Virus record (IMG/VR): IMGVR_UViG_3300046028_005303
Coordinates: 1-52,644 of that record
Length of the DNA stretch: 52,644 nt
Origin: a virus
Direction: 5' to 3' (one strand)
Notes under the pieces: generated by a model
Database searches by the model: none
The model's input: only the letters and a program-made list of their open reading frames with translations
Told to the model about the DNA's origin: nothing
Position numbers and translations under genes: made by a program
Part shown: piece after piece, positions 20,499 through 41,601 of the stretch
Layout: each line of letters opens with the position of its first letter
How positions within the stretch are numbered: the stretch's first letter is position 1

Positions 20499-21248
20499 AT
20501 GGACCAATATTTAAAGAAAATAATTGAGGAAACTTTTGCATCTAAAGCACAACAAAGATTCTTTTATGCTAAAGCGGGAGATAAATCCATACCTAAAAAA
20601 GAAAGGAAAAAATGGGATAAATGGTCTAAAGAATTTTCAAGTAAAACTGATTATAAAAAAATACCAGATAAAGTTGAAAATGAATTAGATGAAATAGTGG
20701 ATGAATTTGGAAATATTTCTAAAAAGAAAGTACCATTAACTAAAGATAGTAAAGGTACAACACATAAAACTACCGATGAAATTGTAAAAACAGGTGGTGG
20801 TTCTATGGGTATTCATGGTGTACACGGTACGCATACATCACTTAGATATTGGGCAGAATCTGATTTAAGTAAAGGATTGGGATATGAAAAAACATTAGGG
20901 AGAGATGCTGATATTGAATCCGCTAAAAAATATTTTAAACATGAACTTGAAATTGATGATGATGAAACTGAAGAAAGATTATCTTCATATGGATATGATG
21001 AGGATTTAGAAGGTGATAAAGTTAGACTTATTGAAAATCCTAAGAAATATATTGAAGATTACGTTGAAAGTATTATCAATAAAAAAACAGATAGTAATGA
21101 TTTAATAAAGAAAGACCAATATGAAGATGTTGATCAAGAATTAGAACCTATTATAAAAAAACAGATATCTGCTTTGAAAAAAACTTTAAAAAAGAATAAT
21201 GTACCATTAAGTCATGTTTTTAAACTATTAAAAAGAGAAGATGAATAA
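20499..21248 (+). CDS. Putative virion-associated protein with SKAQQRFF-type N-terminus
   Basis: A 249-residue highly charged protein. It opens [27 protein letters not shown]; the SKAQQRFF motif followed by a KWSKEF-type helix is common in uncharacterised phage proteins. The centre has a His-rich segment ([15 protein letters not shown]) and the C-terminal half is acidic and helical. The first residues form a helix ending in I-E-E, a candidate gp21-type processing site, so it may be packaged in the head. It is the first gene of a tight plus-strand operon and overlaps the next gene by eight bases. Function unknown. Confidence 0.65.
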
Positions 21249-21729
21249 AGATTTAAAAAACAGGGTTTTTAAAATACCTCAAGATATTTTAGTCAAAATA
21301 AAACAAACAATAACTTGGTTGAATGGTGAAAATATTAAAGGTATTCAAAGAGCTAAAAAACTTTTAGAAGACAAAACTGTAAAATATAATCAATTAAAAA
21401 GAATTATTCATGATATTCAGAACATGGATAAAATTAAGGATAAATTAAAATATGATCTTTGTGGTGGGGAGTTAATGGAAAAATGGGCATTAACGTTTTT
21501 AAATAACGAAAGAGATTTGATTAAAAGTAATAAAAAATCGAAAAAAAAATCTGATGAGGCTTCAGGTTTAACTGGTCAAAGAAAAAATGGTTATTTAAAT
21601 TCACACACCAAAAGATTTAGTTTTAAAATCCCATTAAATTTAATGAAAAGTAATTCAAATAAAACAAGTGTTTCATCATTAAAACTATTTGAAGAACTTG
21701 AAAAAATAAAAAAACTAATCACACATTAA
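21241..21729 (+). CDS. Hypothetical helical protein
   Basis: A 162-residue, basic, mostly helical protein, translationally coupled to the gene before it (start overlaps its stop by eight bases). Seen: FKIPQDILVKIKQTI at the start, YNQLKRIIHDIQNMDKI, a central GGELMEKWALTFLNNER, a Lys-rich stretch (SNKKSKKKSDEASG), and a closing FSFKIPLNLM segment. The GGELMEKW part looks like a conserved core. No family recognised; the operon context (putative virion accessory genes) suggests a structural or packaged protein. Confidence 0.6.
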   Translation: MNKDLKNRVFKIPQDILVKIKQTITWLNGENIKGIQRAKKLLEDKTVKYNQLKRIIHDIQNMDKIKDKLKYDLCGGELMEKWALTFLNNERDLIKSNKKSKKKSDEASGLTGQRKNGYLNSHTKRFSFKIPLNLMKSNSNKTSVSSLKLFEELEKIKKLITH

Positions 21730-21730
21730 T

Positions 21731-22687
21731 ATGGCAACTCAATTAGAAATAATAGCTGAACAACAAAGACAACAACATTTATCAACAAATCAGTACAATT
21801 ATAATCAATTGTATGATTCAAATAATTTAAATGCGTTATCTAGTAATGACGAAAAAGGTAAAGGAGAGTTGAATGGTAATATAGGTTCTAAAAAAGATAT
21901 ACTTGAAAGGAACTCATTATTATCTAAGAATTTATATAATAATAAATTTTTATATGATTCTAACAATCCAAACGCAATATCTGATGGTGATGAAAAGGGA
22001 AAGGGGGAAACAACAAAATCAATAGGTGGATTAACTGATATTAATGTTAGAAACATTCTATTAGGTAAAAACATATACACATCTAATAATGGTTATGGTA
22101 CTAATAACCCAAACGCAATATCTGATGGTGATGATAAAGGAAAAGGTGAAAATAATAATGGTAGTATTGGTTCTAATAAAGATATACTTGAAAGAACAAC
22201 TTTATTATCAAAAAATATTTATAAACCATTAAATGATTATAATTCAAAACACCCAAACGCAATATCTAACGGTGATGATAAAGGGAAAGGTGAAAATTCA
22301 AATGGTGTTATTGGTTCTAAAACAGATATAAATAAAAGGAATGAACTTTTATCAAAAAACATTTATAAAACAGGTTTTTTATATGGTTCAAATAATCCAA
22401 ATGCAAAATCTAATGGTGATGAAAAAGGTAGAGGAGAAATTGATGGTTTTGTTGGTACTAAAACAGATATGAATGAAAGAGTAAATTTACATTCTAAAAA
22501 TATATATAGACCAAATTATCCTTATAATTCAAATAATCCAAACGCTATATCTAATGGTGATGAAAAAGGTAGAGGTGAACGTAATGGTATTGTTGGAACA
22601 AAGACAGATATTAGTGAAAGAACATTATTAATTGCACGAAATAAATATAACTCTACTGAAGATTATAAGAAAAAAACTATTTTTTAA
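21731..22687 (+). CDS. Repeat protein with six ~47-residue NPNAISxGDEKGKGE repeats
   Basis: A 318-residue protein made almost wholly of six tandem copies of a unit with the core SNNPNAISNGDEKGRGE, then NGxIGxKTDIxERxxLLSKNIY. The N-terminal 25 residues are Gln/Asn rich (AEQQRQQHLSTNQYNYNQLY). Regular spacing of Gly, Asp and Tyr suggests an elongated, possibly metal-binding structural protein. Similar repeats occur in structural regions of other T4-like Bacteroidota phages as far as I recall; the exact role is not known. Neighbours are spaced by one base on the left and overlap by one base on the right, so it belongs to one operon with the presumed virion proteins. Confidence 0.7.
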   Translation: MATQLEIIAEQQRQQHLSTNQYNYNQLYDSNNLNALSSNDEKGKGELNGNIGSKKDILERNSLLSKNLYNNKFLYDSNNPNAISDGDEKGKGETTKSIGGLTDINVRNILLGKNIYTSNNGYGTNNPNAISDGDDKGKGENNNGSIGSNKDILERTTLLSKNIYKPLNDYNSKHPNAISNGDDKGKGENSNGVIGSKTDINKRNELLSKNIYKTGFLYGSNNPNAKSNGDEKGRGEIDGFVGTKTDMNERVNLHSKNIYRPNYPYNSNNPNAISNGDEKGRGERNGIVGTKTDISERTLLIARNKYNSTEDYKKKTIF

Positions 22688-23568
22688 TGAATAATTTTAA
22701 AAAGATTTTATTAGAAATGTCGATTGGTTCAAAAAGAGAAAGAATTACTAAAGCTATAAAAAATAGATTTTTAGTTTCTTTTTATTATAATGGACCAAAA
22801 GGTGAAGTATTACCGGGTAGAAGAATTAAAGCAGAGTTAGTTGTATTAGGGTTAACAAAAAAAGGTAATTTAGTTGCTAGAGGTTGGGTTCAACCGCCGT
22901 CAATATCTAAAAAAGGTTTTGAAAAACATGGATGGAGATTATTCATGTTAAATCGAATGTCTGGTATTCAAATATATGAAGATGAAACTTTCGATGTAAA
23001 AAGACCTGATTTAAATGATAGTGGTGATAAGTCTTTAAGTGTTGTTTATGTTACAAGTGATTGGGGTACGTTACCTACAGTACCCAAAAAAGATGATGAA
23101 AAACCAGAACCAGCAACTGAACCGGAATTACCTGAACCAAAACCATCAGTAGAACCTGAAATAGAACCAGAACCTGATACAGAACCCGAACCTACAATAG
23201 AACCGGAATTACCTGAACCAAAACCAGAATCAAAACCTCCAATAACACCCGACCCAAAAATTGATTTCACATCTGAAATTTACGATGAATTAAAGAAAAA
23301 AGTTCAGGATATTGATGGTAAAAAAACAATATCACCAGACGACTTTAATATTCTTATGGATAATTTACGTAAAAAAGAATTTAATGATTGGTCTAATAGA
23401 AAAAAAGAAATCGGAGATAATTCTAGACCGGGTGAAGGGACTCGTAGAAGGATTGAAAAAGAAACCGAAGTAAAATTATTTAATTTAATGAAAAAAGATA
23501 ATATTGTCATAGGGACAATACCATTACAAGAATCAATAAAAAGAATTAAAGCTTTAATCTTTTTTTAA
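22687..23568 (+). CDS. WYL-like domain protein with Pro-Glu linker
   Basis: A 293-residue protein. Residues about 15-110 resemble a WYL (SH3-like beta barrel) domain: RERITKAIKNRFLVSFYYNG, the strand EVLPGRRIKAELVVLG, LVARGWVQ, and GWRLFMLNRMSGIQIYEDE. A Pro/Glu-rich linker (about 140-190; repeated EPELPEPKP) leads to a helical, charged C-terminal part. WYL domains bind nucleic acid or ligands in bacterial regulators. The N-terminus NNFKKILLE is a short amphipathic helix ending in an L-x-E site, like a capsid-targeting sequence. The ATG overlaps the previous stop by one base. Confidence 0.6.
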   Translation: MNNFKKILLEMSIGSKRERITKAIKNRFLVSFYYNGPKGEVLPGRRIKAELVVLGLTKKGNLVARGWVQPPSISKKGFEKHGWRLFMLNRMSGIQIYEDETFDVKRPDLNDSGDKSLSVVYVTSDWGTLPTVPKKDDEKPEPATEPELPEPKPSVEPEIEPEPDTEPEPTIEPELPEPKPESKPPITPDPKIDFTSEIYDELKKKVQDIDGKKTISPDDFNILMDNLRKKEFNDWSNRKKEIGDNSRPGEGTRRRIEKETEVKLFNLMKKDNIVIGTIPLQESIKRIKALIFF

Positions 23569-23596
23569 AAATAATTATATTATAAAAAAATACATT

Positions 23597-24157
23597 ATGG
23601 TAAAAGGTACAATAAGTGAAAATGAATTAATGATGAAATTAGTTCAAGCAAAAAAAGTATTAAATAAAGTTGATGGAGGTAATTATGAGAGAGGACATAT
23701 AAATGAAACAATTTTAAGGTCTAACCCTGAAGATATTGACCCTTCGTATTTAAAAAACAACGCAACAAGTGTTTCATCTAAAAAAGTTATGGAATCTAAA
23801 CTCCCTGACGTTATAAAAAAGGCGATGATTGATACACCTATACCACAAATAAGTTTAAATGATTCATTAAATTTAGATTTTGTTAAAAATACAAAAAAAT
23901 TAATGGAAGCTGAGGGTGTTAGAATTAATAGTAACTCAAGTAAATCAATACAAAGTAATAATGATGGTCATTTAATGAAAGAATTAACGCCATTAATTGA
24001 GAATATCGTAAGAAAAACAGTTACAGAAATATTAGATTCAAAACTGAATCAAATTTTAACCGCACAACAAACTCTTTCAATCAATGAAAATTTAGTGTTA
24101 AAAGTTGGTGATTCTATTTTTAAGGGTAAAATTACTGGTGTTAATAAATCTAAATAA
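23597..24157 (+). CDS. Hypothetical protein
   Basis: A 186-residue protein, mostly helical and Asn/Ser/Lys rich. The N-terminal region (SENELMMKLVQAKKVLNKVD) and the later LTPLIENIVRKTVTEILDSK look like helices that could pair as a coiled coil. The end, LVLKVGDSIFKGKITGVNKS, looks like a small beta hairpin and is the most conserved-looking part. I do not recognise a family. It closes the operon that began at 20499; a 57-base AT-rich gap with a run of T follows and may hold a weak terminator. Confidence 0.6.
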   Translation: MVKGTISENELMMKLVQAKKVLNKVDGGNYERGHINETILRSNPEDIDPSYLKNNATSVSSKKVMESKLPDVIKKAMIDTPIPQISLNDSLNLDFVKNTKKLMEAEGVRINSNSSKSIQSNNDGHLMKELTPLIENIVRKTVTEILDSKLNQILTAQQTLSINENLVLKVGDSIFKGKITGVNKSK

Positions 24158-24214
24158 TTTTTCTATTTTTTTTTTAATTTCTTTTTTGTATTATTATTTT
24201 ATAATGATTATTTA

Positions 24215-25435
24215 ATGTCAAAAATTAATATTTTAACAATTCCTCCTGATATACACGGTGTAGGTAAATATAGAATTTTAGATCCCTTTAAATTTATTGG
24301 TGATAACTATTCAGACGAATTTCATGTTGATATATCCATGAACGTAGAAAATGACGATGAACTTTTTAAAAAATATGATGTTGTAGTATTTCATAGTTTT
24401 ATTCATCAAATGAGTCATGAACAAAATTTAGAAAGAATTAAAAAGTTAAAATCACAAGGTATAAAAGTGGTTATGGATATCGATGATTATTGGTTAGTTG
24501 ATTTTACTCATCCAATGTATCACCAAATTAAACAACATGAAATACCTCGTAAAAAAGTTGAGTTAATGAAAGCTTCAGATTGGGTAACTTGTACAACTCA
24601 AACTTTTGCTGATTCGATTAGAACAAAATTAGGTATTAAAAATGTTTTAGTTTTTCCAAATGCTGTTGACCCAAATGAACCACAATTTAAATCAAATCCA
24701 GAAAAATCTGATAAAATAAGATTTGGGTGGTTAGGTGGTTCAAGTCATTATCATGATGTTAAATTAATGTCTTCAGGTATTAGTTCAATTCTTGGACAAT
24801 ATTCAAACACACAATTCGTTTTATGTGGGTTCGATTTAAGAGGTACTGTAACTGAAAATAATCCACAGACTGGTGAACAAAAAATTAGACCAATTCAACC
24901 AATGGAAACTGTTTGGTATAATTATGAAAAAATATTTACAGAAAATTATAAGTACATAGATGAAGATTATAAAAAATATTTACTATCTTTCACCCAGAAA
25001 GAATATGATACATCTGAAAAGAGATATCGTAGAGTTTGGACACAACCAGTAAATAAATATGCTATGAATTATAATTTATTTGACGTATCTTTCGCCCCTC
25101 TTATCGAAAGTGACTTTAATGCTAATAAATCACAACTAAAAGTTATTGAAGCAGGTTTCCATAAGAAGGCATTAATTGCAAGTGAAACACTACCATATAC
25201 TCATGATTTAATTAATGTTTTTGATTATGGTGGTAAAATTAATGATAAAGGTAACGCTCTTTTAGTGTCACCTAAAAAAAACCATAAACAATGGGCACAA
25301 CAAATGAAAAGACTTATAGATAACCCAAACATGATAGAAGATTTAGGTAATAAACTTTATGAAACTGTAAAGGATACTTATTCTCTTCAAAATGTTTCTA
25401 AAAATAGGACACAATTTTTTAAATCAATAATCTAG
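24215..25435 (+). CDS. Glycosyltransferase, GT-B fold (GT4-like)
   Basis: A 406-residue enzyme that should transfer a sugar from a nucleotide donor. Seen: NILTIPPDIHGVGKYRILDP (N-terminal acceptor-side loop with Gly), KVVMDIDDYWLVD (the D-x-D-D stretch found in many phage GT4-like enzymes), TTQTFADSIR, VLVFPNAVDP (hinge before the second Rossmann domain), IRFGWLGGSSHYHDV and NKSQLKVIEAGFHKKALIAS (the donor-site E-x-G part near the C-terminus). It is the first of three glycosyltransferases in this plus-strand cluster. The acceptor (modified DNA base, capsid or fibre protein) cannot be told from the sequence. Confidence 0.8.
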   Translation: MSKINILTIPPDIHGVGKYRILDPFKFIGDNYSDEFHVDISMNVENDDELFKKYDVVVFHSFIHQMSHEQNLERIKKLKSQGIKVVMDIDDYWLVDFTHPMYHQIKQHEIPRKKVELMKASDWVTCTTQTFADSIRTKLGIKNVLVFPNAVDPNEPQFKSNPEKSDKIRFGWLGGSSHYHDVKLMSSGISSILGQYSNTQFVLCGFDLRGTVTENNPQTGEQKIRPIQPMETVWYNYEKIFTENYKYIDEDYKKYLLSFTQKEYDTSEKRYRRVWTQPVNKYAMNYNLFDVSFAPLIESDFNANKSQLKVIEAGFHKKALIASETLPYTHDLINVFDYGGKINDKGNALLVSPKKNHKQWAQQMKRLIDNPNMIEDLGNKLYETVKDTYSLQNVSKNRTQFFKSII

Positions 25436-25440
25436 TAAAC

Positions 25441-25671
25441 ATGTATTATTTAGTAACTGTAGGTTATGAGTTAGAACAACTCGACCGAAATGGTAATCCA
25501 AGGCTTCAAAAAATCAAGTATGTTGTTGAAGCTCAATCTGTTGAAGAAGCAACTATTGTAGTTGCAAAATATCGATCTGAAGATGTTAGATCGAGTGAAA
25601 GTTTATCAATTGTAAAATTACAAATTGAATGTGTAATTGATAAACAAAACACCCCACAATATTTTAAATAA
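25441..25671 (+). CDS. Small DUF4494-like protein
   Basis: A 76-residue protein: YYLVTVGYELEQLDRNGNP, KIKYVVEAQSVEEATIVVAK, SLSIVKLQIECVID. The order of a strand, a short turn, a strand with V-E-A-x-S-x-x-E-A and a closing I-x-K-x-x-I strand resembles DUF4494, a small family found in Bacteroidota and their phages. Its function is not known to me. It lies five bases after the glycosyltransferase and 16 bases before the next small gene. Confidence 0.6.
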   Translation: MYYLVTVGYELEQLDRNGNPRLQKIKYVVEAQSVEEATIVVAKYRSEDVRSSESLSIVKLQIECVIDKQNTPQYFK

Positions 25672-25687
25672 TTAAAAAACCAAAAAA

Positions 25688-25921
25688 ATGGAATTTTTTA
25701 GTCGTGAACTTCAGATTTTAAGACAATCACAAAGTAAAATGGTGGTAGAGTATTTAAATTCTTTACAAGTAAAAGTGACTGTAGAGGAACTACAAAAAAT
25801 TACAGATGTTTTTGTTGAATGTTGTATAAGACCACAAGATGATGAGTTGAAAGATAGAATTAAAAAATTAGATAAATGGATAGAAACTAAAAAAAATAAA
25901 ATAGAAAAAATAGATGGATAA
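25688..25921 (+). CDS. Hypothetical small helical protein
   Basis: A 77-residue charged helical protein (SRELQILRQSQSKMVVEYLN, VTVEELQKITDVFVEC, and a Lys-rich end). Its stop overlaps the start of the dUTPase gene by eight bases, so the two are coupled. No family recognised. Confidence 0.55.
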   Translation: MEFFSRELQILRQSQSKMVVEYLNSLQVKVTVEELQKITDVFVECCIRPQDDELKDRIKKLDKWIETKKNKIEKIDG

Positions 25922-26498
25922 AAATAATATCGATGATTACGTTAATAGACTACGTGAAATTGAAAATTCTTTAGAATCTGATGATGTTGATTTTTCACTT
26001 ATAAGTGATTTAAACAAAGTATTGTTAGCTATTGATAATGACATTCAAAATAATGCGATGAATATTAACACCTCATTGAAAATTAGGTTAAAAAAATTAA
26101 ATCCAACTGCAGTAACCCCGTCTTATTCTAAAGACGGGGATGCTGGAATGGACTTAACGGCAACAACAATAATATCTAACACTATAGACCAAGTCACATA
26201 TGGTACGGGTATCTCGTTAGAGATACCTAAAGACTATGTTGGTTTAGTTTTTCCTAGATCATCTATTCGGAAATATGATTTAGAATTAACTAATTCTGTT
26301 GGTGTTATTGATAGTGGATACAGAGGAGAGATTCAATTAACTTTCAATAAAGTTAATAATAAAACAACAATTTATAATGTTGGTGATAGGGTAGGACAAA
26401 TTATGATTATACCATATCCAAAAATAAATTTTGTTGAATCTGATGAATTAACAATAACTGAAAGAGGCGAAGGTGGATTTGGTTCATCCGGTTCATAA
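25914..26498 (+). CDS. dut: Trimeric dUTPase with N-terminal extension
   Basis: Hydrolyses dUTP to dUMP and pyrophosphate, keeping uracil out of the phage DNA and feeding thymidylate synthesis. Motifs seen: 1, DAGMDLTA (about 76-83); 2, PRSS (114-117); 3, GVIDSGYRGEIQ (130-141) with the catalytic Asp and Tyr; 4, GDRVGQIMI; 5, RGEGGFGSSGS at the C-terminus. All five are complete. The frame has about 48 extra acidic helical residues before the usual start; ATG 26058 (MNINTSLKI) would give a standard-length enzyme and is a possible alternative start. Pairs functionally with the dCMP deaminase at 41608-42048. Confidence 0.93.
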   Translation: MDKNNIDDYVNRLREIENSLESDDVDFSLISDLNKVLLAIDNDIQNNAMNINTSLKIRLKKLNPTAVTPSYSKDGDAGMDLTATTIISNTIDQVTYGTGISLEIPKDYVGLVFPRSSIRKYDLELTNSVGVIDSGYRGEIQLTFNKVNNKTTIYNVGDRVGQIMIIPYPKINFVESDELTITERGEGGFGSSGS

Positions 26499-26525
26499 TT
26501 AAATAAATAAATAAAATAAAATAAA

Positions 26526-28322
26526 TTGAGAAAATCAAATTTGAATTCAGAAAATAATACTGAAAATAAAACACCTAAGAAAGAAAGAATTAGGCAAATA
26601 ATAAAAGAACCAAAAGAAAAATTTTTAACAACAAATCAAGAAGAATATTGGAAAATTTTAGGTGAAAATGAAATTACCTTATGTTTTGGACCTGCTGGTG
26701 TGGGAAAAGCACAGCCTTTAGATTCCATTATTTATACTCCTGATGGTGAAAAAACTATGGGGGATATTGAAGTTGGTGATTATGTGATTGGTGAAGATGG
26801 TAAAAAAACTAAAGTGATTGCCACACATCCTCAAGGAATTAAACCTATTTATAGAGTTTTATTTAATGATGGTTCTTTTACTGAAACATGTAATGAACAT
26901 TTATGGTTTACACAAACAGAAAAAGATAGAAATAATCGTACAAAAATTAAAGGTGAAAGATTTAAAAATCCATTAAAAGGGAGTGTTAAAGAATTATCAG
27001 AAATAAGAGAAAGTATTATTTCTAGTCGTGGATATAAAAACCATACGATTCCAATAACTAAACCTGTAAATTTTAATGAAGTTCCTCTTTTTGTAAAACC
27101 ATATTTAATGGGTATTTTATTGGGTGATGGTGGACTTTCACAGGAAAGAATAACATTTACTACTGCTGATACTGAAATAGTTGATAATATCAATTATTTA
27201 ATTCCTGAAACTTGTGTTCTTAAAGAAGTACCATCTGCTAAATATGGTTATTCAATTGTTTCTAAACGAATAGAGACTTCTAATAATTTAATTCTCGATG
27301 AAATTAGAGAGTGTAGGTTAAATAGTATAAAAAGTATAAATAAATTTATACCTAAAAAATATCTTTTTAATTCAGTAGAAAATAGAATAGAACTTTTACA
27401 AGGATTATTAGATAGTGATGGATATGTAAATAGAAATGGAACATCAGTTTTTTACACAACAACATCAGTAGAACTAATGAATGATGTTAAATTTTTAGTA
27501 AATAGTTTAGGTGGTGTAGTCAATATCACTAATAAAAAACCTTTTTACAGAGATAAAAATGGTAATAAAATTATTTGTAATATCGCATATACATTAACAA
27601 TAAATCTTCCAAACGATATAAAACCATTTAAACTCAAAAGAAAATTAGATTTAGTAAAACCAAAAACTAAATACCCCCCAAAAAGATTTATAACTAGTAT
27701 TGATTATGTTGGAGATAAAGAAGCTAAATGTATAACTATTGATTCTGAAAACCAATTATATTTAACTGATAATTTCATAGTGACACATAACTCGTACATT
27801 GCCATGAAAAAAGCAGTGACATTATTATGGGACGATAAAAATAAGTATGAAAAAATTATAATAGTAAGACCAGCAGTAGAAGCTGAAGAAAAGTTAGGAT
27901 CATTACCAGGTAATTTAGAAGAAAAACTTGACCCATATATTTATCCGTCTTATTATTTATTGAATAAAATTATTGGTAAAGAATGTAGAGAAAAATTAAA
28001 ACAAGAAGGTTTTATTGAAGTAGCTGCTTTAGCTTTCATGAGAGGATGGAATGTTGATAATACGATTCTTATATTTGAAGAAGCACAAAATACAACACCT
28101 TCACAAATGAAACTTTTACTAACAAGAATAGGATATAATTCAAAGTTTTTTATTTCAGGTGATTTAGAACAATCAGATAAATTTAAAGATAAAACAAAAA
28201 CAGGATTATATGATGCTAAGGTGAGATTAGAGAATATAAAAAATGTTGGTTTTTTTGAATTTGATACAAAAGATATTGTTCGTAATCCTATAATTGGCGA
28301 AATATTAAAAAGGTATGATTAA
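26526..28322 (+). CDS. PhoH-like ATPase interrupted by an in-frame intein
   Basis: P-loop ATPase of the PhoH family, common in T4-like phages; its role there is unsettled (RNA or nucleotide metabolism is proposed). The start is TTG at 26526, as no ATG occurs early in the frame. Host motifs: FGPAGVGK^SYIAM (P-loop, split after residue 61), IIIVRPAVEAEEKLGSLPGN, FMRGWNVDNTILIFEEAQN (Walker B), SGDLEQSD and the C-terminal DIVRNPIIGEIL. Without the intein the host is 237 residues, a normal length. The N-terminal 55 residues are a basic, Asn/Lys-rich extension. Confidence 0.93.
   Translation: MRKSNLNSENNTENKTPKKERIRQIIKEPKEKFLTTNQEEYWKILGENEITLCFGPAGVGKAQPLDSIIYTPDGEKTMGDIEVGDYVIGEDGKKTKVIATHPQGIKPIYRVLFNDGSFTETCNEHLWFTQTEKDRNNRTKIKGERFKNPLKGSVKELSEIRESIISSRGYKNHTIPITKPVNFNEVPLFVKPYLMGILLGDGGLSQERITFTTADTEIVDNINYLIPETCVLKEVPSAKYGYSIVSKRIETSNNLILDEIRECRLNSIKSINKFIPKKYLFNSVENRIELLQGLLDSDGYVNRNGTSVFYTTTSVELMNDVKFLVNSLGGVVNITNKKPFYRDKNGNKIICNIAYTLTINLPNDIKPFKLKRKLDLVKPKTKYPPKRFITSIDYVGDKEAKCITIDSENQLYLTDNFIVTHNSYIAMKKAVTLLWDDKNKYEKIIIVRPAVEAEEKLGSLPGNLEEKLDPYIYPSYYLLNKIIGKECREKLKQEGFIEVAALAFMRGWNVDNTILIFEEAQNTTPSQMKLLLTRIGYNSKFFISGDLEQSDKFKDKTKTGLYDAKVRLENIKNVGFFEFDTKDIVRNPIIGEILKRYD
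26709..27791 (+). other. Class 3-type LAGLIDADG intein in the PhoH P-loop
   Basis: A 361-residue insertion between AGVGK and SYIAM. It begins AQPLDSIIYT (Ala1) and ends IVTHN before Ser+1. It shows Trp after block B (NEHLW), Cys at the block F position (AKCITID) and Thr in block G (VTHN), the class 3 set. Endonuclease motifs: PYLMGILLGDGG and IELLQGLLDSDGY. It aligns along its length with the helicase intein, including MGDIEVGDYVIG, HPQGIKPIYRVLFNDG, NKFIP and PFKLKRK stretches. Confidence 0.92.
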
Positions 28323-28359
28323 AACTTTATTTATTTAAATTTTTTTATTATATTTTATT

Positions 28360-31057: not shown

Positions 31058-31756
31058 ATGCCCCGTAAGAGAACCCAAAAAGTGTATTTTGGGGAGGACC
31101 AAGAAAAAGCGGTGGTGAGATATTTAGAATCCGAATCCGAAATAGAAAAGAATAAGATATTCAATGAATATTTAAAAGAACCTCTCATTATAATGGTCGA
31201 ATCTATTATTCGACGTTATAAATTATATCGAAAAGATTTAGATTTTTCGGATATACATAGCGATACAATGTCTTTTTTAATTACAAAAATTAATAAATTC
31301 GACCACACAAAAAATCATAAAGCATATTCTTATTTTGGAACAATATGTAAAAATTATTTAATGGGTGCTATACAAAAAGATACAAAAGAAACAAATAGAA
31401 ATGTTTCTTATGAAGATATTTCTTCTGATATAGAAGAAAATTTTAAATATTCTTACGTTATAGATGAAAATTTTATTGATTATGAAGACGTTGTAGTTAA
31501 AATCACCATAAAAATGGAAGAGTTTATGGAAAAAGAAGATTTAACAGAGAATGAAGAAAAATTAGGTTATGCTCTTTTAGAGATTTTTTCAAATTTTGAT
31601 AAAATATTTCAAGTAGGTGATGGAAATAAATTTAATAAAAATTTAATTTTACTTTCATTACGTGAAATGACATCATTATCTACAAAAGAAATAAGGATAT
31701 GTATGAAAAAATTTAAAAAACTTTATAAAGGTATTATTCTAAATTTCATAAATTAA
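31058..31756 (+). CDS. Late transcription sigma factor, gp55-like
   Basis: A small sigma-70 relative that redirects host RNA polymerase to phage late promoters. Seen in 232 residues: VYFGEDQEKAVVRYLESES, IFNEYLKEPLIIMVESIIRR, YKLYRKDLDFSDIHSDTMSF, HKAYSYFGTICKNYL (region 2 helix contacting the -10 element and polymerase), ending with a helical segment (ILLSLREMTSLSTKEIRICM) that may be an HTH. Length and layout fit gp55-type factors of T4-like phages. Its target is probably the TATTTATA element found before many structural genes in this window. The gene lies among late genes and precedes a cluster of structural ones. Confidence 0.75.
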   Translation: MPRKRTQKVYFGEDQEKAVVRYLESESEIEKNKIFNEYLKEPLIIMVESIIRRYKLYRKDLDFSDIHSDTMSFLITKINKFDHTKNHKAYSYFGTICKNYLMGAIQKDTKETNRNVSYEDISSDIEENFKYSYVIDENFIDYEDVVVKITIKMEEFMEKEDLTENEEKLGYALLEIFSNFDKIFQVGDGNKFNKNLILLSLREMTSLSTKEIRICMKKFKKLYKGIILNFIN

Positions 31757-31763
31757 AATAATA

Positions 31764-31773: not shown

Positions 31774-31778
31774 ATATT

Positions 31779-34099: not shown

Positions 34100-34100
34100 T

Positions 34101-34301
34101 ATGGAAAAGAAAAGAATAATAGAAATTATTGATGATATAAAAGATAAACCTAATAAAGATTTATTAGAATGTGAATTTGTTCTTTTTGAAGAATATGAAA
34201 AAACAAAAGAAATAGTTATAGAATTAACTAAACATATGGATACTATAGAAGAAATGCATTCTAAAATTATTTCTGAAATTGAGAAAAGAAAAAATTTATG
34301 A
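34101..34301 (+). CDS. Hypothetical small helical protein
   Basis: A 66-residue acidic, fully helical protein (KRIIEIIDDIKDKPNKDLLE; EIVIELTKHMDTIEEMHSKI). The ATG at 34101, just after the previous stop, is chosen over an upstream GTG that lies inside that gene. The end overlaps the next start by four bases. No function assigned. Confidence 0.55.
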   Translation: MEKKRIIEIIDDIKDKPNKDLLECEFVLFEEYEKTKEIVIELTKHMDTIEEMHSKIISEIEKRKNL

Positions 34302-35854
34302 AAATAATAGATATTGGTATTTGTATTGATAATGAAGACCCTAAAGCTATGGGTAGGATTCGTTGTATTGATTATGACGATTATGTTTCAGGAAAAGAAA
34401 ATTATAGAAAATATACTCCATGGAGTGAAGAAGATCCATTCATTGCATTACCTTTTTTACCAAACAATATAAATTTTATTCCTGAGAATTTTCAAGCGGT
34501 AAAAATTTTAAGGTATAATACAGAAAAAACAACAGTAAACCAAGAATATATTGCGGGTCCATTTACCACAAGGTTCGATTTTAATGGTCAAACATATTCA
34601 GAACAAGTTAGTCCAACTACTTTTGGTTCAGGTGTAAAAGATAAAATTGATATATTATCTAATGGTAAATTACCAAAAGATAGTGAAAATATGTTAGCTA
34701 AAAATACTGATTATTCTATTTCAGGTAAATTTGGTTCTGATATTTTATTAACAGAAGATGGTTTAGTTTTAAGGGGTGGAAAGTTAATCTCTAAAAAATC
34801 TTCAACAAAAGAACAAAGAAAAAAACTTTTTAATTATCCATTATCTTCTAAGAAAGTTGCAAAATTACAATTAAAAAAATTTTCAGAAAAAAAAGTTTTA
34901 GTTGAAGAAGAAAAAATCACCACAACATACGAAAATGTAAATCTAAAGTATGTTATTGAATATGATATTAATAGTATTACCAATCCAAATACTATTAATT
35001 ATTTTATATATAAAATAAATACAAATGTTTATGGTGAATTATTTAAAACAAATTATTTTACAGAATTTACTGAATTACCTATAAATTCTTATATTTTATT
35101 AAATGACGACAATACTAATACTACACCAACATTAACTGTTGATATGTTAAGTAAAGTGGATTTTAGTGGGAGTACATTAGAAAGTAAAATAACACAAATA
35201 TGTTCTGAAATAAGAACAACATTAACCAATATAAAAGATAATGGATTTATTGGTTTGTTTAATTCAGAAATAAATAAAAAATTTGACGGTCCTGAAGATT
35301 TAAATAATATATATCCTTTTTTCTTTAGACCGACATATTCATTAAGGACATTACCAACATCTAATCCAACAGAATTAAACACTAAAAATAATTTATTATT
35401 AGGTGTTAAATTATCTAAAAATATACAACAAAGTAGTTTAGTTTGGTCTAACACATCTTTTTCATCTAGACCTATTTTTAAAACAGAAAAAATAAAAAAT
35501 TTAAAAAAAGATAATACATCAAAAGAACAAACATTTGGTAGTATAACATCTGATAAAATATATTTACTATCTACTGACACTAATTTCACTAACAAAACAA
35601 TTGAGTTTGATAAATTAAATAGTTATGAATATGAACAAGATGATTATTTAAGTAAAATTGACCCTAATACATACGCAACAGTTAGGGGTGAAAATTTATA
35701 TAATGTTTTAGTTGCTTTTAAAAATTTAATGGATAGTCATATTCATAACATAAATCAACCTTTATCTAAAGGAGATGAAAATTGGATTATATTAGATAAT
35801 TTAATGTCCACATTAGAAAATGAGTTATTAAACAAGTCAATTAGAATCAACTAA
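34298..35854 (+). CDS. Baseplate hub/spike-type protein with gp5-like OB-fold start
   Basis: Residues 1-90 read KIIDIGICIDNEDPKAMGRI, a later YTPWSEEDPFIALPFLP and PENFQAVKILRYN. This matches the OB-fold N-terminal domain of T4 gp5-type hub proteins (G-x-V-x-x-x-x-D-P-x-x-x-G-R-V...PW...P.P...V.V). The rest (about 150-480) has Asn/Thr-rich strands and no lysozyme domain. The C-terminus holds the stretch LYNVLVAFKNLMDSHIHNIN, with a His pair also seen near the ends of phage spike proteins. A spike or hub role is inferred from this domain and the neighbouring structural genes. Confidence 0.55.
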   Translation: MKIIDIGICIDNEDPKAMGRIRCIDYDDYVSGKENYRKYTPWSEEDPFIALPFLPNNINFIPENFQAVKILRYNTEKTTVNQEYIAGPFTTRFDFNGQTYSEQVSPTTFGSGVKDKIDILSNGKLPKDSENMLAKNTDYSISGKFGSDILLTEDGLVLRGGKLISKKSSTKEQRKKLFNYPLSSKKVAKLQLKKFSEKKVLVEEEKITTTYENVNLKYVIEYDINSITNPNTINYFIYKINTNVYGELFKTNYFTEFTELPINSYILLNDDNTNTTPTLTVDMLSKVDFSGSTLESKITQICSEIRTTLTNIKDNGFIGLFNSEINKKFDGPEDLNNIYPFFFRPTYSLRTLPTSNPTELNTKNNLLLGVKLSKNIQQSSLVWSNTSFSSRPIFKTEKIKNLKKDNTSKEQTFGSITSDKIYLLSTDTNFTNKTIEFDKLNSYEYEQDDYLSKIDPNTYATVRGENLYNVLVAFKNLMDSHIHNINQPLSKGDENWIILDNLMSTLENELLNKSIRIN

Positions 35855-35857
35855 TGA

Positions 35858-35867
35858 CATATTTATA
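35858..35867 (+). promoter_or_regulatory. Putative late promoter box (CATATTTATA) before gene 35879
   Basis: Matches the late-type element except for the first base and ends 11 bases before the ATG at 35879, in a 24-base gap. Confidence 0.4.
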
Positions 35868-35878
35868 TAATAAAAAAT

Positions 35879-37255
35879 ATGTCTTATTTCCGTTCGTATT
35901 TTGAAAAAAATAATACCATAATAAAAAATTATGGTGTAAATACTGCAAAAAATCCAACTACCGAAATTTTTTATGGGTCAGGTTTTTCTAAATATTTATT
36001 TAAAGTCGATTTTTCTGATTTAATAACAAAAATTCAAAATGGTGATTTAGTTAATAACACTAATACTAGACATTATTTAAAAATGACCAATACTATATTC
36101 GGTGATCCTAAATTAATAGGTGAAAAAAGAAACACTGGAAAACAAAGAACCACATCATTTGATTTAATACTTTTTAAAATTTCAGAAAATTGGGATGAGG
36201 GCATTGGATTTGATTATGAAGATGGTGGATATGATTTCACGTATGGTAATAATACTTTTGATGAACGTCCATCAAATTGGTTTAATAGGACAACTTTAAA
36301 TGGGTGGACAATCCCTGGTGTCTATTCAACATCACCAACAATATTAACGACAATTCATTTTGATAACGGTAACGAAAATATCGACGTAGATATCACTGAC
36401 TACGTTAATGGTATTATTGTGTCAGGTAACACTAATCATGGATTAGGGTTAGCCTTTGCTGTCTTATATCAAGATATTAATGATGAATATGACCAATCTG
36501 TTTCATTTTTTACCAAATACACACAAACATTTTATGAACCTTTTGTTGAATCTGTTTTTGATGATTTAATACAAGATAATCGACAAAATTTTATTAGTGA
36601 AAGAGATAATAATCTTTTTTTATATGTAACAAAAGGTGGTAATTTTTATGATTTAGATGGAATGCCTATTGTTGATATTTTAAATAGTTCAGAGACACCA
36701 ATTACGGGACTTACGGGGTTAACAACAACCAAAATTAAAAAAGGTATTTATAAAGTTGCTTTCGGTATATCTGGTGAACTATGTGATGGTAAAAGATTTT
36801 TTTATGATAAATGGAGAAATTTAAATATTGATAATAATTCAATATCGGATGTCACACAAAAATTCGTACCTAAACCATTTTCCAATTATTATTCATTTGG
36901 GTCAAATCCAACAGAATCACAAAATTTTATTATACAATTTTCAGGAATAAAACAAAATGATAAAATAATAAGAGGTGAATTAAAAAAGATTGTTATTGAT
37001 TTGAAATCAATTGAAATTTCTAAATCACAATTATTTGAAAACGTTTTTTATAGAATATTTATAAAAGAAGGTAAAACTAACGTTATTGTTTATGATTGGA
37101 CTAAATTAGATATGACAACTAATGAAAATTCGTTCTATTTAGATACATCATTTATGATACCTAGAGAGTATTTTATGGAATTTAAAGCATTAACATATAC
37201 TGAGGAAAATTTTTATCCTAACTATATTAAATTTGAAATAATATCAGAAAAATAA
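35879..37255 (+). CDS. Structural protein with DNRLRE/CBM-like domain
   Basis: A 458-residue beta-rich protein. Residues about 30-220 resemble DNRLRE-type jelly-roll domains: SKYLFKVDFSDL, FDLILFKISENWDEGIGFD, SNWFNRTTLNGWTIPG, then IDVDITDYVNGIIVSGNTNH and GLGLAFAVLYQD (the D-V-T-x-x-V-x-x-W-I-like strand and the Gly-rich closing strand). Such domains are used by surface proteins to hold or bind glycans. The C-terminal half has strands ending FYPNYIKFEIISEK. A late-type box precedes it. It likely belongs to the tail or baseplate periphery. Confidence 0.6.
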   Translation: MSYFRSYFEKNNTIIKNYGVNTAKNPTTEIFYGSGFSKYLFKVDFSDLITKIQNGDLVNNTNTRHYLKMTNTIFGDPKLIGEKRNTGKQRTTSFDLILFKISENWDEGIGFDYEDGGYDFTYGNNTFDERPSNWFNRTTLNGWTIPGVYSTSPTILTTIHFDNGNENIDVDITDYVNGIIVSGNTNHGLGLAFAVLYQDINDEYDQSVSFFTKYTQTFYEPFVESVFDDLIQDNRQNFISERDNNLFLYVTKGGNFYDLDGMPIVDILNSSETPITGLTGLTTTKIKKGIYKVAFGISGELCDGKRFFYDKWRNLNIDNNSISDVTQKFVPKPFSNYYSFGSNPTESQNFIIQFSGIKQNDKIIRGELKKIVIDLKSIEISKSQLFENVFYRIFIKEGKTNVIVYDWTKLDMTTNENSFYLDTSFMIPREYFMEFKALTYTEENFYPNYIKFEIISEK

Positions 37256-37265
37256 AATTAAAATT

Positions 37266-38033
37266 ATGAAAAATATTAAAACAATTATTAAAAAACAATT
37301 AAAAAATTTATCCGAATCTGCTTATAGTGAAGAGAATTATATGTTTTTTCAAAATATCTCTCAAATACATAGACAATGTGAGATTTTATTAAAAATGGAT
37401 GAGAATGAAGTTGATTCAATTTTACAAAATGGTCATGATTGGGCGGATGACCATATTTCAGAAGCCAAAACAAATATTGACCAAGTTTTTGATTTTTTAA
37501 TGAATGAAACTGAAAGTACAGATAAAAAACCTAAAATGAATTCAAGATTAGAACCAAACATGGATACATTTAGTTTAAATGAAAATGAAGTGATTGATGA
37601 GTCTAAAAATAAACCAACTAACCCTAAACTATGGGCAGCGTCTTTAGCTTGGGCTAAAACTAAATATGATGTTTGTCCAAGTGCATATTGTAATGGTGCA
37701 GCTGCTAAAAGATATAAATCAAAAGGTGGTGGATGGAGAAAAAAAACAAATGAAAGTGTAAACGAGTCAAAAAAAGATAATGATGATATCTATCACAAAA
37801 CATATACTTCAGCAATTAATGCTGGTCTTGAATACGCAGAGAAAAAAGGTTACACATATGACCAAGATGAAGTTGCATCTGAAATAGGTATGGGACCAAA
37901 AAAACCAAAAGAAGGCGATACAAATCGATTTACAATATCTTTGAAAAAAGATGATAAGGAACAAAAGAAATCTTTACACATACAAGTTTATGGTATGAAA
38001 GAAAAATATGAATTAAATTGTTATATAAATTAA
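37266..38033 (+). CDS. Multi-domain putative capsid-packaged protein
   Basis: A 255-residue protein with three parts. (1) KNIKTIIKKQLKNLSESAYS: a basic amphipathic helix ending in an L-S-E site, like a capsid-targeting sequence. (2) PKLWAASLAWAKTKYDVCPS with AYCNGAAAKRYKSKGGGWRK: a small basic domain with Cys pairs, common in head-associated proteins of large phages and probably DNA binding. (3) A C-terminal beta domain (NRFTISLKKDDKEQKKSLHI). The middle has a second helical segment (RQCEILLKMDENEVDSILQN). It starts 10 bases after the previous gene and four bases before the next. Confidence 0.6.
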   Translation: MKNIKTIIKKQLKNLSESAYSEENYMFFQNISQIHRQCEILLKMDENEVDSILQNGHDWADDHISEAKTNIDQVFDFLMNETESTDKKPKMNSRLEPNMDTFSLNENEVIDESKNKPTNPKLWAASLAWAKTKYDVCPSAYCNGAAAKRYKSKGGGWRKKTNESVNESKKDNDDIYHKTYTSAINAGLEYAEKKGYTYDQDEVASEIGMGPKKPKEGDTNRFTISLKKDDKEQKKSLHIQVYGMKEKYELNCYIN

Positions 38034-38037
38034 TATT

Positions 38038-39507
38038 ATGAATTCAAATATAATAAACGAAATATTAAAAGGTTATATAATCGCTGCTCTTTGGACTGAA
38101 GAAGAAAGAATAAATGATGAATATGGGGTTGATGATGAACTTATATATGGTGATAATGATGATGACGAACTTGAAAAAATAATAAATTTATCATCAAATA
38201 TTAATAAAAAAGGGTTTGATACATTTACAAAAGAAGACATTGAAGATAATTCATTAATTAAAGCATATACAGATATTAAAGAATTTATTAAAAAAGTTGG
38301 TGAAGATACAATAGAATCTGCAATAACTGAAGATAATGTAGAACCTGATACAATTGGTCATGATTTATGGTTAACAAGAAATGGTCATGGTGCTGGTTTT
38401 TTTGATGGTCATTATGATGAGGAAAGAGAAGAAAAATTCCTTAACGCGTCAAGAGAAATGGGTTCTGTTGATTTGTATATTAATGAAAACGGTAAATTAT
38501 CGTTTTCAAACGAACATGTTTTTGAAAATAAAAACAATAATATGAAAATATTAGTAAACGAAGAAGATTTAAAATATATAGAGGAATCTATTATGAATGG
38601 TCTAATTATTAAAGAAGACTTAAGAAGGTGGTTCAAGGAAAAATGGGTGGATGTATCTAAAAAGGTAGATGGTAAACATCCTCCTTGTGGTAGAAAAGAG
38701 GCAAAAGATAAAGGTTATCCAAAATGTAGACCATCTAAGAAAGTATCAAAAGACACACCAAAAACTGCTGGTTCATATTCAAAGAAAGAAAAAAAATCAA
38801 TGACTTCTCAAAAAAGAAGTGCCGAAAAAAAAGACCCAAAAGTAGGTAAAGGAAATCTACCTACAATGACTAGATTTGATGAGAATAGAGTAATAAATTT
38901 GAAATTACCTGAAATAAGTGAAAAAAATTTACCACCTACGTTAAATGTATTAAATGAATCAAAAATAAATCTGAGTGAAGGACTACAATATCATTTAAAA
39001 AATGAAAAACAAATCATTGAAAATGTGTACAGAGTTTATTCAGAAAAATTTTTTGAATTATTTAATGAATCAAGAGAATTGGTAAATAAAAACATATTAA
39101 ACGTTTTTGGTGATGATAAAGTACTTTTAAAAACTGACATAGGTAAAACAGGTATATATGAAGGTAATGAAGTTTATTTAGATATACCATTTGTTTTAGA
39201 TGAAGAAGAATATTTAGTTGAAGCAAAACATAGAGGTAAAGAAGTAAAATTAAACAAACCATTTAGAACACCAGGTGGTCCGAAAAAATTTGCTGTTTAT
39301 GTTAAAAGTCCAGGTGGTAATATTAAAAAAGTTACTTTTGGTGACCCTAATTTGAGGGTTAGAAATAATAATAAAGCTGCCGCTAAATCATTTAGAGCAA
39401 GACACAAATGTGACCAAAAGAAAGATAGAACAACTGCTGGGTGGTGGAGTTGCAATGTATCTAGATATAGGAAGGTGCTTAGCATCAAAAGCTCAAATTC
39501 TTGGTAG
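38038..39507 (+). CDS. Three-module virion-associated protein (DUF5872-like and DUF6321-like)
   Basis: A 489-residue protein joining modules usually found separately. (1) Residues about 115-160: IGHDLWLTRNGHGAGFFDGH, a small conserved phage domain. (2) About 200-265: LRRWFKEKWVDVSKKVDGKH, PPCGRKEAKDKGYPKCRPSK, KTAGSYSKKEKKSMTSQKRS, the pattern of DUF5872, found in large viruses and phages. (3) C-terminal: KKFAVYVKSPGGNIKKVTFG, SFRARHKCDQKKDRTTAGWW, a basic Cys/His/Trp domain like DUF6321. All three modules are basic and likely bind nucleic acid. The start NSNIINEILKG has an I-N-E site. Assignments are by eye from remembered family patterns. Confidence 0.65.
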   Translation: MNSNIINEILKGYIIAALWTEEERINDEYGVDDELIYGDNDDDELEKIINLSSNINKKGFDTFTKEDIEDNSLIKAYTDIKEFIKKVGEDTIESAITEDNVEPDTIGHDLWLTRNGHGAGFFDGHYDEEREEKFLNASREMGSVDLYINENGKLSFSNEHVFENKNNNMKILVNEEDLKYIEESIMNGLIIKEDLRRWFKEKWVDVSKKVDGKHPPCGRKEAKDKGYPKCRPSKKVSKDTPKTAGSYSKKEKKSMTSQKRSAEKKDPKVGKGNLPTMTRFDENRVINLKLPEISEKNLPPTLNVLNESKINLSEGLQYHLKNEKQIIENVYRVYSEKFFELFNESRELVNKNILNVFGDDKVLLKTDIGKTGIYEGNEVYLDIPFVLDEEEYLVEAKHRGKEVKLNKPFRTPGGPKKFAVYVKSPGGNIKKVTFGDPNLRVRNNNKAAAKSFRARHKCDQKKDRTTAGWWSCNVSRYRKVLSIKSSNSW

Positions 39508-39521
39508 TAAATAAAAAAATT

Positions 39522-39788
39522 ATGGAATTACCTTTTTCTGAAAAAATAAATAATGGGTTTTATATTAGAACATTTTCATCGGATTTAAATGAGAATGAAT
39601 TGAAATGGCATTTTGATGAAGAAGATAGAATTGTTATATGTGAAAACGATACTGATTGGTTATTTCAATTTGATAATGAATTACCAATTACAATAAATAA
39701 AAATGAACCAATTGTTATCCAAAAAAATATTTATCATAGGATAATAAAAGGTACTAATAATTTAAAACTTAAAATTAAAAAACTATGA
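39522..39788 (+). CDS. Small cupin-like protein
   Basis: An 88-residue protein from ATG 39522; an in-frame TTG at 39501 lies inside the previous gene and is rejected. Seen: ELKWHFDEEDRIVICENDTD, WLFQFDNELPITINKNEPIV and IYHRIIKGTNNLKLKI. The W-H-x-D-E-x-D-R strand, F-D-x-x-x-P and I-x-x-x-x-Y-H-R-I-I-K-G layout is that of a small single-domain cupin-like fold seen in phages and Bacteroidota. Metal binding is possible through the two His. The stop overlaps the next start. Confidence 0.6.
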   Translation: MELPFSEKINNGFYIRTFSSDLNENELKWHFDEEDRIVICENDTDWLFQFDNELPITINKNEPIVIQKNIYHRIIKGTNNLKLKIKKL

Positions 39789-40837
39789 AACTAATCACTT
39801 TATTAGAAAGTAAACAAACTGAAGAACTTGGAAAAAATATCCTTAAAGGTAAAGGAATACCTGAAAATGATATTGAAAATATTGTAAATGATTTTAAAAA
39901 TGGAGATAGGTCTCAAAATCAAAAAAATATTCCAATAATGTGTTTTTTTTATGATTCCAATATATCCACTAATCAAATCATTAGTGAGATAAACGATTTT
40001 AATCTATTAATGGATAATAGAAAAATTACTACTGAAAATTTTGGTAAAAAGGGGTTAACAATTAAGTACAAAGGTACTAATGGAGAAGATATTGAAAAAA
40101 CATATACACCAAATGATTGGTTATCTTTTACCGAACTTATTCATGGTCAATTACAAATTTTTAATAGATCTAGAGAGAAATCTTCAGAATATGAAACTAC
40201 TAAATATGATGAAGAAAAATCCGCTAACTTACCGATATACATGAAAGGAGATAATATTAATGTATATGAGGCTAAAGGTAAAAAAGATTGTATTAATTAT
40301 ACACACAGTTTAACAAATAAAACTTATACTTTTTGTATTGGTAGAACTGAACCATCACAAAATATGTATAATAGTTATAGAAATACTAGATCAGCTAAAT
40401 TTTATTATATTGTAGATTTAAATAAAATGGATAAACCAAACGATCCATTACATATGGTTGTCTTACAAACAAATTTATTACCACAAAAAAGTATTACTTT
40501 AACGGATGCAAATAATACTTCTGGTAACATTGCGGAATATGGATCAGAGGTTGATGGATATTTAGAATATTTAAAGTCAAAAGGTATTGATACGGATAAA
40601 TTTGAATATTCTGAATTAACTGAAACTGAAAAGTATACAAATAGATTAGTTAATAATTCAATTGGTGAGTTAGAAACTCTTTTAAATTTAGATAACCCAT
40701 CAAATCCAAACTATAAAAAACCTGATATTGAAATTGAATCTGATTTAGAAAATTATTATTTAGGTCAATATATTGACCGTGGTCACACTTTAACTGATAA
40801 ACAATTTGATTATTTCTTGAGTGTAAGTAAAGATTAA
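39785..40837 (+). CDS. Hypothetical protein with Alt-like N-terminal targeting motif
   Basis: A 350-residue protein. It starts KLITLLESK, close to the T4 Alt leader ELITELFDE, which directs Alt into the head and is cut by gp21; here L-L-E gives the equivalent site. The central part, YEAKGKKDCINYTHSLTNKT with YTFCIGRTEPSQNMYNSYRN and AKFYYIVDLNKMDKPNDPLH, matches a domain I have seen in large phages and giant viruses (a C-I-x-R/S strand followed by Y-N-x-Y-R and F-Y-F-I-x-D); no enzyme activity is known to me. The C-terminal end (GQYIDRGHTLTDKQFDYFLS) resembles the start of the next protein. Confidence 0.6.
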   Translation: MKLITLLESKQTEELGKNILKGKGIPENDIENIVNDFKNGDRSQNQKNIPIMCFFYDSNISTNQIISEINDFNLLMDNRKITTENFGKKGLTIKYKGTNGEDIEKTYTPNDWLSFTELIHGQLQIFNRSREKSSEYETTKYDEEKSANLPIYMKGDNINVYEAKGKKDCINYTHSLTNKTYTFCIGRTEPSQNMYNSYRNTRSAKFYYIVDLNKMDKPNDPLHMVVLQTNLLPQKSITLTDANNTSGNIAEYGSEVDGYLEYLKSKGIDTDKFEYSELTETEKYTNRLVNNSIGELETLLNLDNPSNPNYKKPDIEIESDLENYYLGQYIDRGHTLTDKQFDYFLSVSKD

Positions 40838-40851
40838 ATTTAGATAATGAT

Positions 40852-41601
40852 ATGAAACATTCAGAAGTATTAAGTAGATATGTGAATACCGGTACACAAA
40901 TACCAGAAAAACAATATGACCGTTTAACACCAGTGTTAAAGAAGTCTTATCTTAGAATGAGAAGGGTTGCAGGTTATGACGGTTGGGAATTTAAATTTTT
41001 AACTGATGATGAAAGAATAAAATCTATTGAAAAAAAAGGTAAAGAATTACTTCAAAATGAAATAAATTATTTACTTTATAGTTCAAATGATAATGACCTT
41101 ATTGCAACAAAAATTATTGATGTGAAAGGTGAAAAATTGAGTCATTATGATATATTTCATTTACTTAAACGATCAAAAAGTATAGATAATATCGCAATAA
41201 AAATTATTGAAGTAAAAGGTGAAGATTTGGATTATAATGATATACATGAATTAATTCATTATTCACGTAATAAAGACCTTATTGCAACAAAAATTATTGA
41301 TGTAAAAGGTGAAAAATTGTGGTCACAAGAAATAAAAATTTTACTTCAACATACTTCTGAAAACATTGAAGTAAAAATAATTCAAACAAAAGAAATTAAA
41401 TTAAGTAAAATCGATATAAATAATTTACTTACATATTCAAAAGATAAAGAATTAATAAAGAAATTATTATTACAAAATGGTGTTGATTATAAATTAATAA
41501 ATGATGCAATAACAAATTATAAAATAGATATTCCATTAATACCAGATAATTACCAGTCAATGTTACAAGAAATAAAAAGGATTAAAGAGATAATGAAATA
41601 A
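40852..41601 (+). CDS. Helical repeat protein
   Basis: A 249-residue protein. After KHSEVLSRYVNTGTQIPEKQ it has repeats of about 30-36 residues with the core DLIATKIIDVKGEKL followed by a short helix (YDIFHLLKRSKSID; YNDIHELIHYSRNKD; INNLLTYSKDKE). Two copies are almost identical in DNA (41095-41139 and 41275-41319, one mismatch in 45 bases). The repeats look like an ankyrin/HEAT-like or leucine-rich-type solenoid. The N-terminus is similar to the end of the preceding protein (TLTDKQFDYFLSVSKD vs QIPEKQYDRLTPVLKK). Function unknown; a protein-binding role is likely. Confidence 0.6.
   Translation: MKHSEVLSRYVNTGTQIPEKQYDRLTPVLKKSYLRMRRVAGYDGWEFKFLTDDERIKSIEKKGKELLQNEINYLLYSSNDNDLIATKIIDVKGEKLSHYDIFHLLKRSKSIDNIAIKIIEVKGEDLDYNDIHELIHYSRNKDLIATKIIDVKGEKLWSQEIKILLQHTSENIEVKIIQTKEIKLSKIDINNLLTYSKDKELIKKLLLQNGVDYKLINDAITNYKIDIPLIPDNYQSMLQEIKRIKEIMK
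41095..41319 (+). repeat. 45-bp direct repeat, 180 bases apart
   Basis: Two copies (41095-41139 and 41275-41319) differ at one base (tgtg/tgta). The spacing is exactly 180 bases, equal to two protein repeat units, so it reflects recent duplication inside the repeat protein gene. Confidence 0.9.

Follow-up and report, generated by a model that had tools for sequence, protein, structure and literature searches.

A few interchangeable tags, placed at the ends of dozens of unrelated proteins in large T4-type phages, are best read as a label that would load these proteins into the phage head for delivery to the next host. Our starting point is a window that is the entire IMG/VR virus record IMGVR_UViG_3300046028_005303 (52,644 bases), which we compared with its relatives. 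In T4, capsid targeting leaders are carried by IPI-IPIII and Alt and are cut by gp21 (PMC9026906). The tags described here are probably a T4-like system for capsid targeting and cleavage, much expanded and diversified, in which a tag may stand at either end of the protein and packaging and cleavage are predicted. The sequences themselves show that the tags exist, that they lie at protein ends with the site beside them, that they are swapped and are confined to viruses, that a related peptide stands at the tails of the scaffold and the protease, and that the cargo has recognisable domains. The initial annotation had proposed T4-type capsid-targeting leaders on unrelated accessory proteins of the window; this idea is supported, mainly by the related genomes and less by the window alone, and several of its details had to be changed.

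The window contains, on its minus strand, a T4-type head module made of gp23, the scaffold, an S77/gp21 prohead protease and a portal-like gene that apparently contains inteins. Both the gp23-type major capsid protein (PF07068, E 9.7e-74) and the T4 gp21-type S77 protease (45485..47362, minus strand; PF03420, E 5e-16; phrog_207, E 4.5e-33) are present, and this protease, whose gene is interrupted by an intein domain, is the presumed cutter of the tags. For maturation, gp23 is predicted to be cut after E60, at LINE|A (residues 57-61; 43867..43881, minus strand), the bar marking the cut, and LINE|(A/S) is kept in 92/92 distinct homologues. The scaffold ends in the C-terminal tail LSE|SKAYENPQFRRMKDLMSKLK (44077..44145, minus strand), and LxE|(S/T/A/N/Q)(K/R)(A/T)YE precedes the tag in 84/84 distinct scaffold tails. 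The C-terminal tail of the protease, which has a Peptidase_S77 match, is STEE|KPQSIDKMKNLMNKLDNFLYK (45488..45562, minus strand), and in the tails of its homologues S(I/L/V)xE usually stands before DKMK.LM. The leader is absent from the control core genes of the window, namely the sheath, the SNF2 helicase, DNA polymerase B, dUTPase, PhoH, the sigma-like gene at 31058 and dCMP deaminase.

Some further features of the window can be mentioned here. Inteins or intein-like insertions are found in at least five core genes of this 52 kb record (helicase, DNA polymerase B, PhoH, prohead protease and portal-like gene), these genes lying at 6235-9096, 11854-15840, 26526-28322, 45485-47362 and 48696-52472; LAGLIDADG or intein-splicing domains were confirmed in 4 of these at least five genes. 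The gene at 332-997 weakly resembles the Mom DNA-modification family (PF25680, E 9e-5, below the cut-off). Of the two proteins encoded at 17089-20541 and 21731-22687, one has long repeats of Thr-Pro and the other is made of NNPNAISDGDEKGKGE-type repeats.

The relatives that we compared are seven large phages (140-287 kb), read wholly or nearly so, and about 160 further loci, with genes called as simple ATG open frames and leader seeds chosen by eye. The leaders are about 8-25 residues long. The class A leader, which is the commonest tag, reads MKIIITESQLKKLIKNILNE| and is followed by Q, while class B reads MNLQENIxRIKxMMGLxxE| and class D reads MKNLxxIIRKHLRxISE|. These leaders stand on 57 (A), 18 (B) and 4 (D) body families in the related loci, and an independent scan placed class A on 37 body families and class B on 25. 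When 138 proteins are aligned, 132 of them taken as body-family representatives, the majority consensus is MKIIITESQxKxxxxxxxE, with almost no conservation beyond it. HMMs were built from one genome (G001) and searched against the six others: the class A model matched at 10 bits or more 36 times N-terminally, 4 times internally and never C-terminally, the class B model matched 10 times N-terminally, never internally and once C-terminally, and shuffled proteins gave no match to these models at 10 bits or more. The class B-type pattern, followed through 917,589 residues, is N-terminal in 15 families, C-terminal in 5 and internal in 2, both internal cases being best read as start-calling errors, with a Met just before the motif. 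Strictly counted, tagged proteins number 7-25 per related genome, and their genes are significantly clustered in gene order in 5 of the 7 related genomes. Descriptions of these leaders were not found in open-licence PubMed Central papers.

Four proteins of Flavobacterium phage immuto (L239-L242) have a different leader in common, FDLKKFLVENKLTxNS or a close variant of it, which suggests a further leader class. In the pterin-4a-carbinolamine dehydratase-like proteins (L296:8339-8605, L188:9682-10092), a class A-like start passes directly to the domain with no clear cut site between them, and these proteins represent a poor example or else a natural look-alike.

An LxE motif adjoins the N-terminal tags in more than 90% of families, as against 10-33% in matched downstream stretches. 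For this comparison, proteins were picked on residues 1-11 of the class A leader or residues 1-15 of the class B leader, the E being ignored. (L/I/V/M)xE follows the leader in 28/30 class A families, against 4, 3, 4 and 9 of 30 in equal downstream stretches, and in 23/24 class B families, against 3, 8, 6 and 4 of 24; the identical test with Asp in place of Glu (xD) shows no excess. At the first predicted site, P3 is L or I in 80/85 class A cases, a count limited to sites with L/I/V/M at P3, and about 5-10% of the class A families have no clear site. The cutting rule of T4 gp21 is L/I-x-E (PMC9026906), which the predicted tag-side sites fit, and the predicted tag-side LxE also matches the predicted LINE|A site of gp23.

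The leaders can moreover be exchanged on a given body. The window protein at 37266, one of the initially proposed examples, proves to be a strong one: it carries the class D leader MKNIKTIIKKQLKNLSE| (37266..37316, plus strand), and 39 distinct leaders are found on this one conserved body, with the E site in 38/39. Mean identity in the family is 57% over the first 30 residues of the body, which holds the motif NYMFFxNIxQMxRQCE, versus 18% for the right-aligned leaders, which include class D and class A forms. A single-sequence structure prediction of the 37266 protein, of low confidence (mean pLDDT 52) and therefore given no weight, places a helix at residues 2-18, spanning the leader. Between-class exchange on one body is also seen in families 33, 106, 139 and 149, class A and short leaders being swapped in family 139. 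Since families swap class A for class B, class D or short leaders, all leader classes should do one job.

Tags are also found at C-termini, and those of the proteins 21241, 22687 and 40852, of the scaffold (44074) and of the protease (45485) were absent from the initial annotation. The scaffold (QFRRMKDLMSKLK), the protease (IDKMKNLMNKL) and these three other proteins all terminate in a peptide related to class B. Protein 21241-21729 ends in the tag LFEELEKIKKLITH (21685..21726, plus strand), conserved C-terminally in 6/7 family members; protein 22687-23568 ends in the class B-type tag LQESIKRIKALIFF (23524..23565, plus strand), found in 7/8 family members and only C-terminally; and protein 40852-41601 ends in the class B-type tag MLQEIKRIKEIMK (41560..41598, plus strand), a pattern present in 16/17 paralogues and homologues. 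The relatives of this last protein form a paralogue array, starting with MKHSEVLSRYVNTG and ending in LNEIRRIKEIM; five such paralogues stand in a row in G001 (77.9-82.4 kb; L165, L166) and six in L090. An HMM of the scaffold tail matches class B leaders weakly: of its 5 family hits outside the scaffold that score at least 6 bits, 4 are terminal, and it gives 1 N-terminal and 1 internal match on shuffled proteins. In 17 head modules from contigs picked by their leaders, the scaffold ends in a recognisable tag after (L/I)xE. Among cultured phages, the scaffold tail of Flavobacterium phage immuto (VSRWQKLAGIIK) matches the phage's own accessory leader FRRMQKLAGIITE, two accessory proteins beginning with MKKQILSEQFRRMQKLAGIITE and MKKQILSEQFKRMQFLAGIITE, and the scaffold of Microcystis phage Mel-JY01 ends in VVERMKKLAGIVK.

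The class A peptide has no counterpart among scaffold or protease tails, and its head address therefore rests on the site, the swaps, the cargo and the distribution. Short terminal helices often serve as docking peptides, and this common role, together with the fact that class A does not match known head-core proteins, fits another explanation, according to which the tags would dock their cargo to some other phage structure outside the head (the tail, a replication site or a scaffold-like condensate), the Glu being a mere helix cap. We nevertheless consider this unlikely, as class B-type peptides end the scaffold and the protease in this clade, the immuto scaffold tail is paired with a similar accessory leader peptide, the tag-side site equals the gp23 site, and class A is swapped with class B, class D and short leaders on one body.

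The nature of the cargo also has to be considered. Pfam searches on the tagged bodies found cell-wall domains (M23 peptidases, a lysozyme with LysM, a cell wall hydrolase, a Tae4 amidase and peptidoglycan-binding domains) and, among others, ART-PolyVal (4 members), two sigma-70 factors, PPK2, a CCA/polyA polymerase, a C39 peptidase and GNAT. One sigma-70 factor, with regions 2 and 4, lies at L394:4140-4682 with a class A leader and is a candidate virion-carried sigma factor; the sigma-like gene of the window (31058-31756) has no leader. Packaging or cutting could also be partial, with tags that stay uncut or anchor inside the head, in which case the carriers would be structural internal proteins and there would be no injected effectors. 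The families without a clear LxE would suit such an arrangement, as would the 40852-type paralogue arrays, in which no enzyme domain was found. This seems quite improbable to us, given that LxE adjoins the tag in more than 90% of families and that the enzymatic cargo (sigma factors, ARTs, CCA polymerase, PPK2) is sensible only in a cell.

The constraint acts on the peptide and not on the DNA, since the leader codons vary synonymously (all four codons for Thr, all six for Ser) and the 60 bases upstream of the leaders show no conservation. On these grounds we dropped the possibility that leaders are kept for expression, as a start-codon context or a regulatory DNA element whose protein function is irrelevant; the location of leaders at start codons and their A/T-rich codons would agree with it, but it is very improbable, the more so as related tags occur at C-termini too. 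Chance, that is, a K-rich helical start with LxE common to many proteins, holds for the bare (L/I)xE motif and for protein 38038 and may apply to 20499 and 39785. For classes A, B and D, the tests of position and of shuffled sequences refute it, the HMM and swap tests also speak against it, and as a general explanation it has a negligible probability.

This last point leads us back to the six N-termini proposed initially (20499, 22687, 37266, 38038, 39785 and 11228), which are all found in their places, each with (L/I)xE. As a shared leader mark, this motif is indeed present in all six and is not diagnostic by itself: over 833 families, its frequency is 16-26 per 1000 positions within residues 1-25 versus 12-15 per 1000 within residues 31-70, so that about one protein in four would have a chance (L/I)xE in its first 20 residues. 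The bare motif was thus dropped as evidence.

The ADP-ribosyltransferase-like protein 11228-11857 supports the proposal, with a strong class B leader MNLQEQTYKMKKLMGLKE| (11228..11281, plus strand) whose motif is terminal-only across families; it matches the class B HMM (iE 1e-9), this leader being itself among the seeds. Its body matches the ART-PolyVal Pfam model weakly (E 0.0033, 18.6 bits, curated cut-off 31.2), and its homologues in IMG/VR are near-identical copies only. Protein 22687 was also well chosen, as it combines its strong conserved C-terminal tag with a variable N-terminal leader, MNNFKKILLE| (22687..22716, plus strand), for which the differing leaders of the homologues mostly end in E (NLINE, NILTE, NLLNE, DILEE, LLLE). 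The leader-like N-terminus at 20499..20531 (plus strand) is conserved inside its own family, with M(D/N).(Y/F)(L/I/V)K.(I/V)IEE and close variants in 8/9 family proteins, and is not shared with other families; it is a plausible leader. Also plausible is MKLITLLE| (39785..39808, plus strand), a weakly supported short (class C) leader candidate: short leaders are modestly enriched (10 families versus 2.5 in shuffles, with a maximum of 8 in 200 shuffles), and class A and short leaders are exchanged in family 139. Its supposed close resemblance to the T4 Alt leader comes down to some likeness by eye, which is thin. Finally, NSNIINE of protein 38038 was ruled out: residues 1-153 align to positions 4-137 of the 141 of the phrog_1915 profile, so the domain covers this stretch from residue 1 and it is no separate leader.

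The tags appear confined to viruses. In viral contigs, at least 120 stretches match the class A DNA pattern and 55 match that of class B, while a search of 257 Gb of bacterial and archaeal genomes found no class A match, which rules out a general bacterial N-terminus. Among 30 contigs picked by leader alone, an S77 protease is found in 16 and gp23 in the same 16, and all 11 leader-picked contigs of at least 220 kb have both. The 14 contigs with neither gp21 nor gp23 are probably fragments; a T4 portal search found no match in them and none in the controls either, and a sheath search matched 6 of them. A tblastn search with 20-22 residue leaders against cultured phages found nothing, but these queries are probably too short and the result has no evidential weight. 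One contig of 269 kb (G016) contains two differing head gene sets, at 31.3-34.9 kb and 233.5-237.9 kb (L424, L425), with two gp23, two S77 proteases and scaffolds of LAGI and RMKDLM types, which would mean that this phage has two head modules, unless the assembly is chimeric. In G001, a long run of open frames of about 60-100 aa, many with MKSV starts and rich in Q-V repeats, occupies 122.5-138.7 kb (L168).

Several known systems can be compared with these tags. As in the T4 capsid targeting system, a short N-terminal leader stands on unrelated proteins, a gp21-type protease is encoded in the same genome, the site is (L/I)xE, and an ADP-ribosyltransferase is among the cargo; C-terminal processing is also known for T4 gp21 and Alt (PMC9026906). 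Unlike in T4, there are several exchangeable leader classes, whose sequences differ by eye from those of T4, far more carriers (the 7-25 strictly tagged proteins per genome), related C-terminal tags that include that of the scaffold, and a wider cargo. In phiKZ and SPN3US, many head proteins are cut after Glu by a gp21 relative (gp175/gp245) and then ejected, with propeptides mostly longer than 100 residues and S/A-x-E sites (PMC5694885). The Glu cut sites, predicted in our case, and the gp21-related protease are common to both, but the leaders described here belong to gp23/S77 T4-type phages, are only about 8-25 residues long and have (L/I)xE, with L or I at P3 in 80/85 class A cases, and so do not conform to the long propeptide and S/A-x-E pattern. 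In other tailed phages such as P22, the C-terminal tail of the scaffold binds the coat. The short terminal scaffold helix would likewise probably dock to the shell, with the difference that a similar peptide is found on the cargo as well, its binding being predicted. Encapsulin cargo-loading peptides, for their part, are short terminal peptides that send enzymes into a shell of the same coat fold; they stay uncut, and this shell is without phage DNA. The likeness with our tags, short terminal peptides on the cargo of a protein shell, would be one of function, and it stops at the predicted removal of the tag and at the DNA-filled phage head.

The binding, packaging, cleavage and injection of the tagged proteins, which we infer, would proceed as follows. 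Late in infection, the short helical N- or C-terminal tag would attach to the core of the prohead or to the inner shell, in the way presumed for the scaffold and protease tails, and closure of the gp23 shell would enclose the tagged cargo. The gp21-type S77 protease would then cut at the (L/I)xE beside the tag, as at gp23 LINE|A and at LSE|S in the scaffold tail, thereby freeing the cargo inside the head. The freed cargo would exit with the DNA and act on host transcription, cell wall and proteins.

We lean slightly towards the broader view that large environmental T4-type phages possess a general modular head-loading code, in which a small number of terminal tags that can replace one another, one or more of them related to the scaffold tail, can turn almost any gene into a virion-delivered effector. 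If this is true, each infecting phage would deliver tens of proteins, among them packaged sigma factors, ADP-ribosyltransferases and wall hydrolases, and the first 25 residues could be enough to identify injected effectors among the uncharacterised phage proteins, by the hundreds. In T4, a ten-residue leader can route proteins into the phage head, and few such proteins are known. If the tags act in a T4-like manner, a sequence test would find injected proteins across hundreds of uncultured phages and would give many orphan genes their first functional label. The finding points to two cultured phages, Flavobacterium phage immuto and Microcystis phage Mel-JY01, and raises the head-assembly question of whether the docking of cargo relies on a copy of the scaffold tail.
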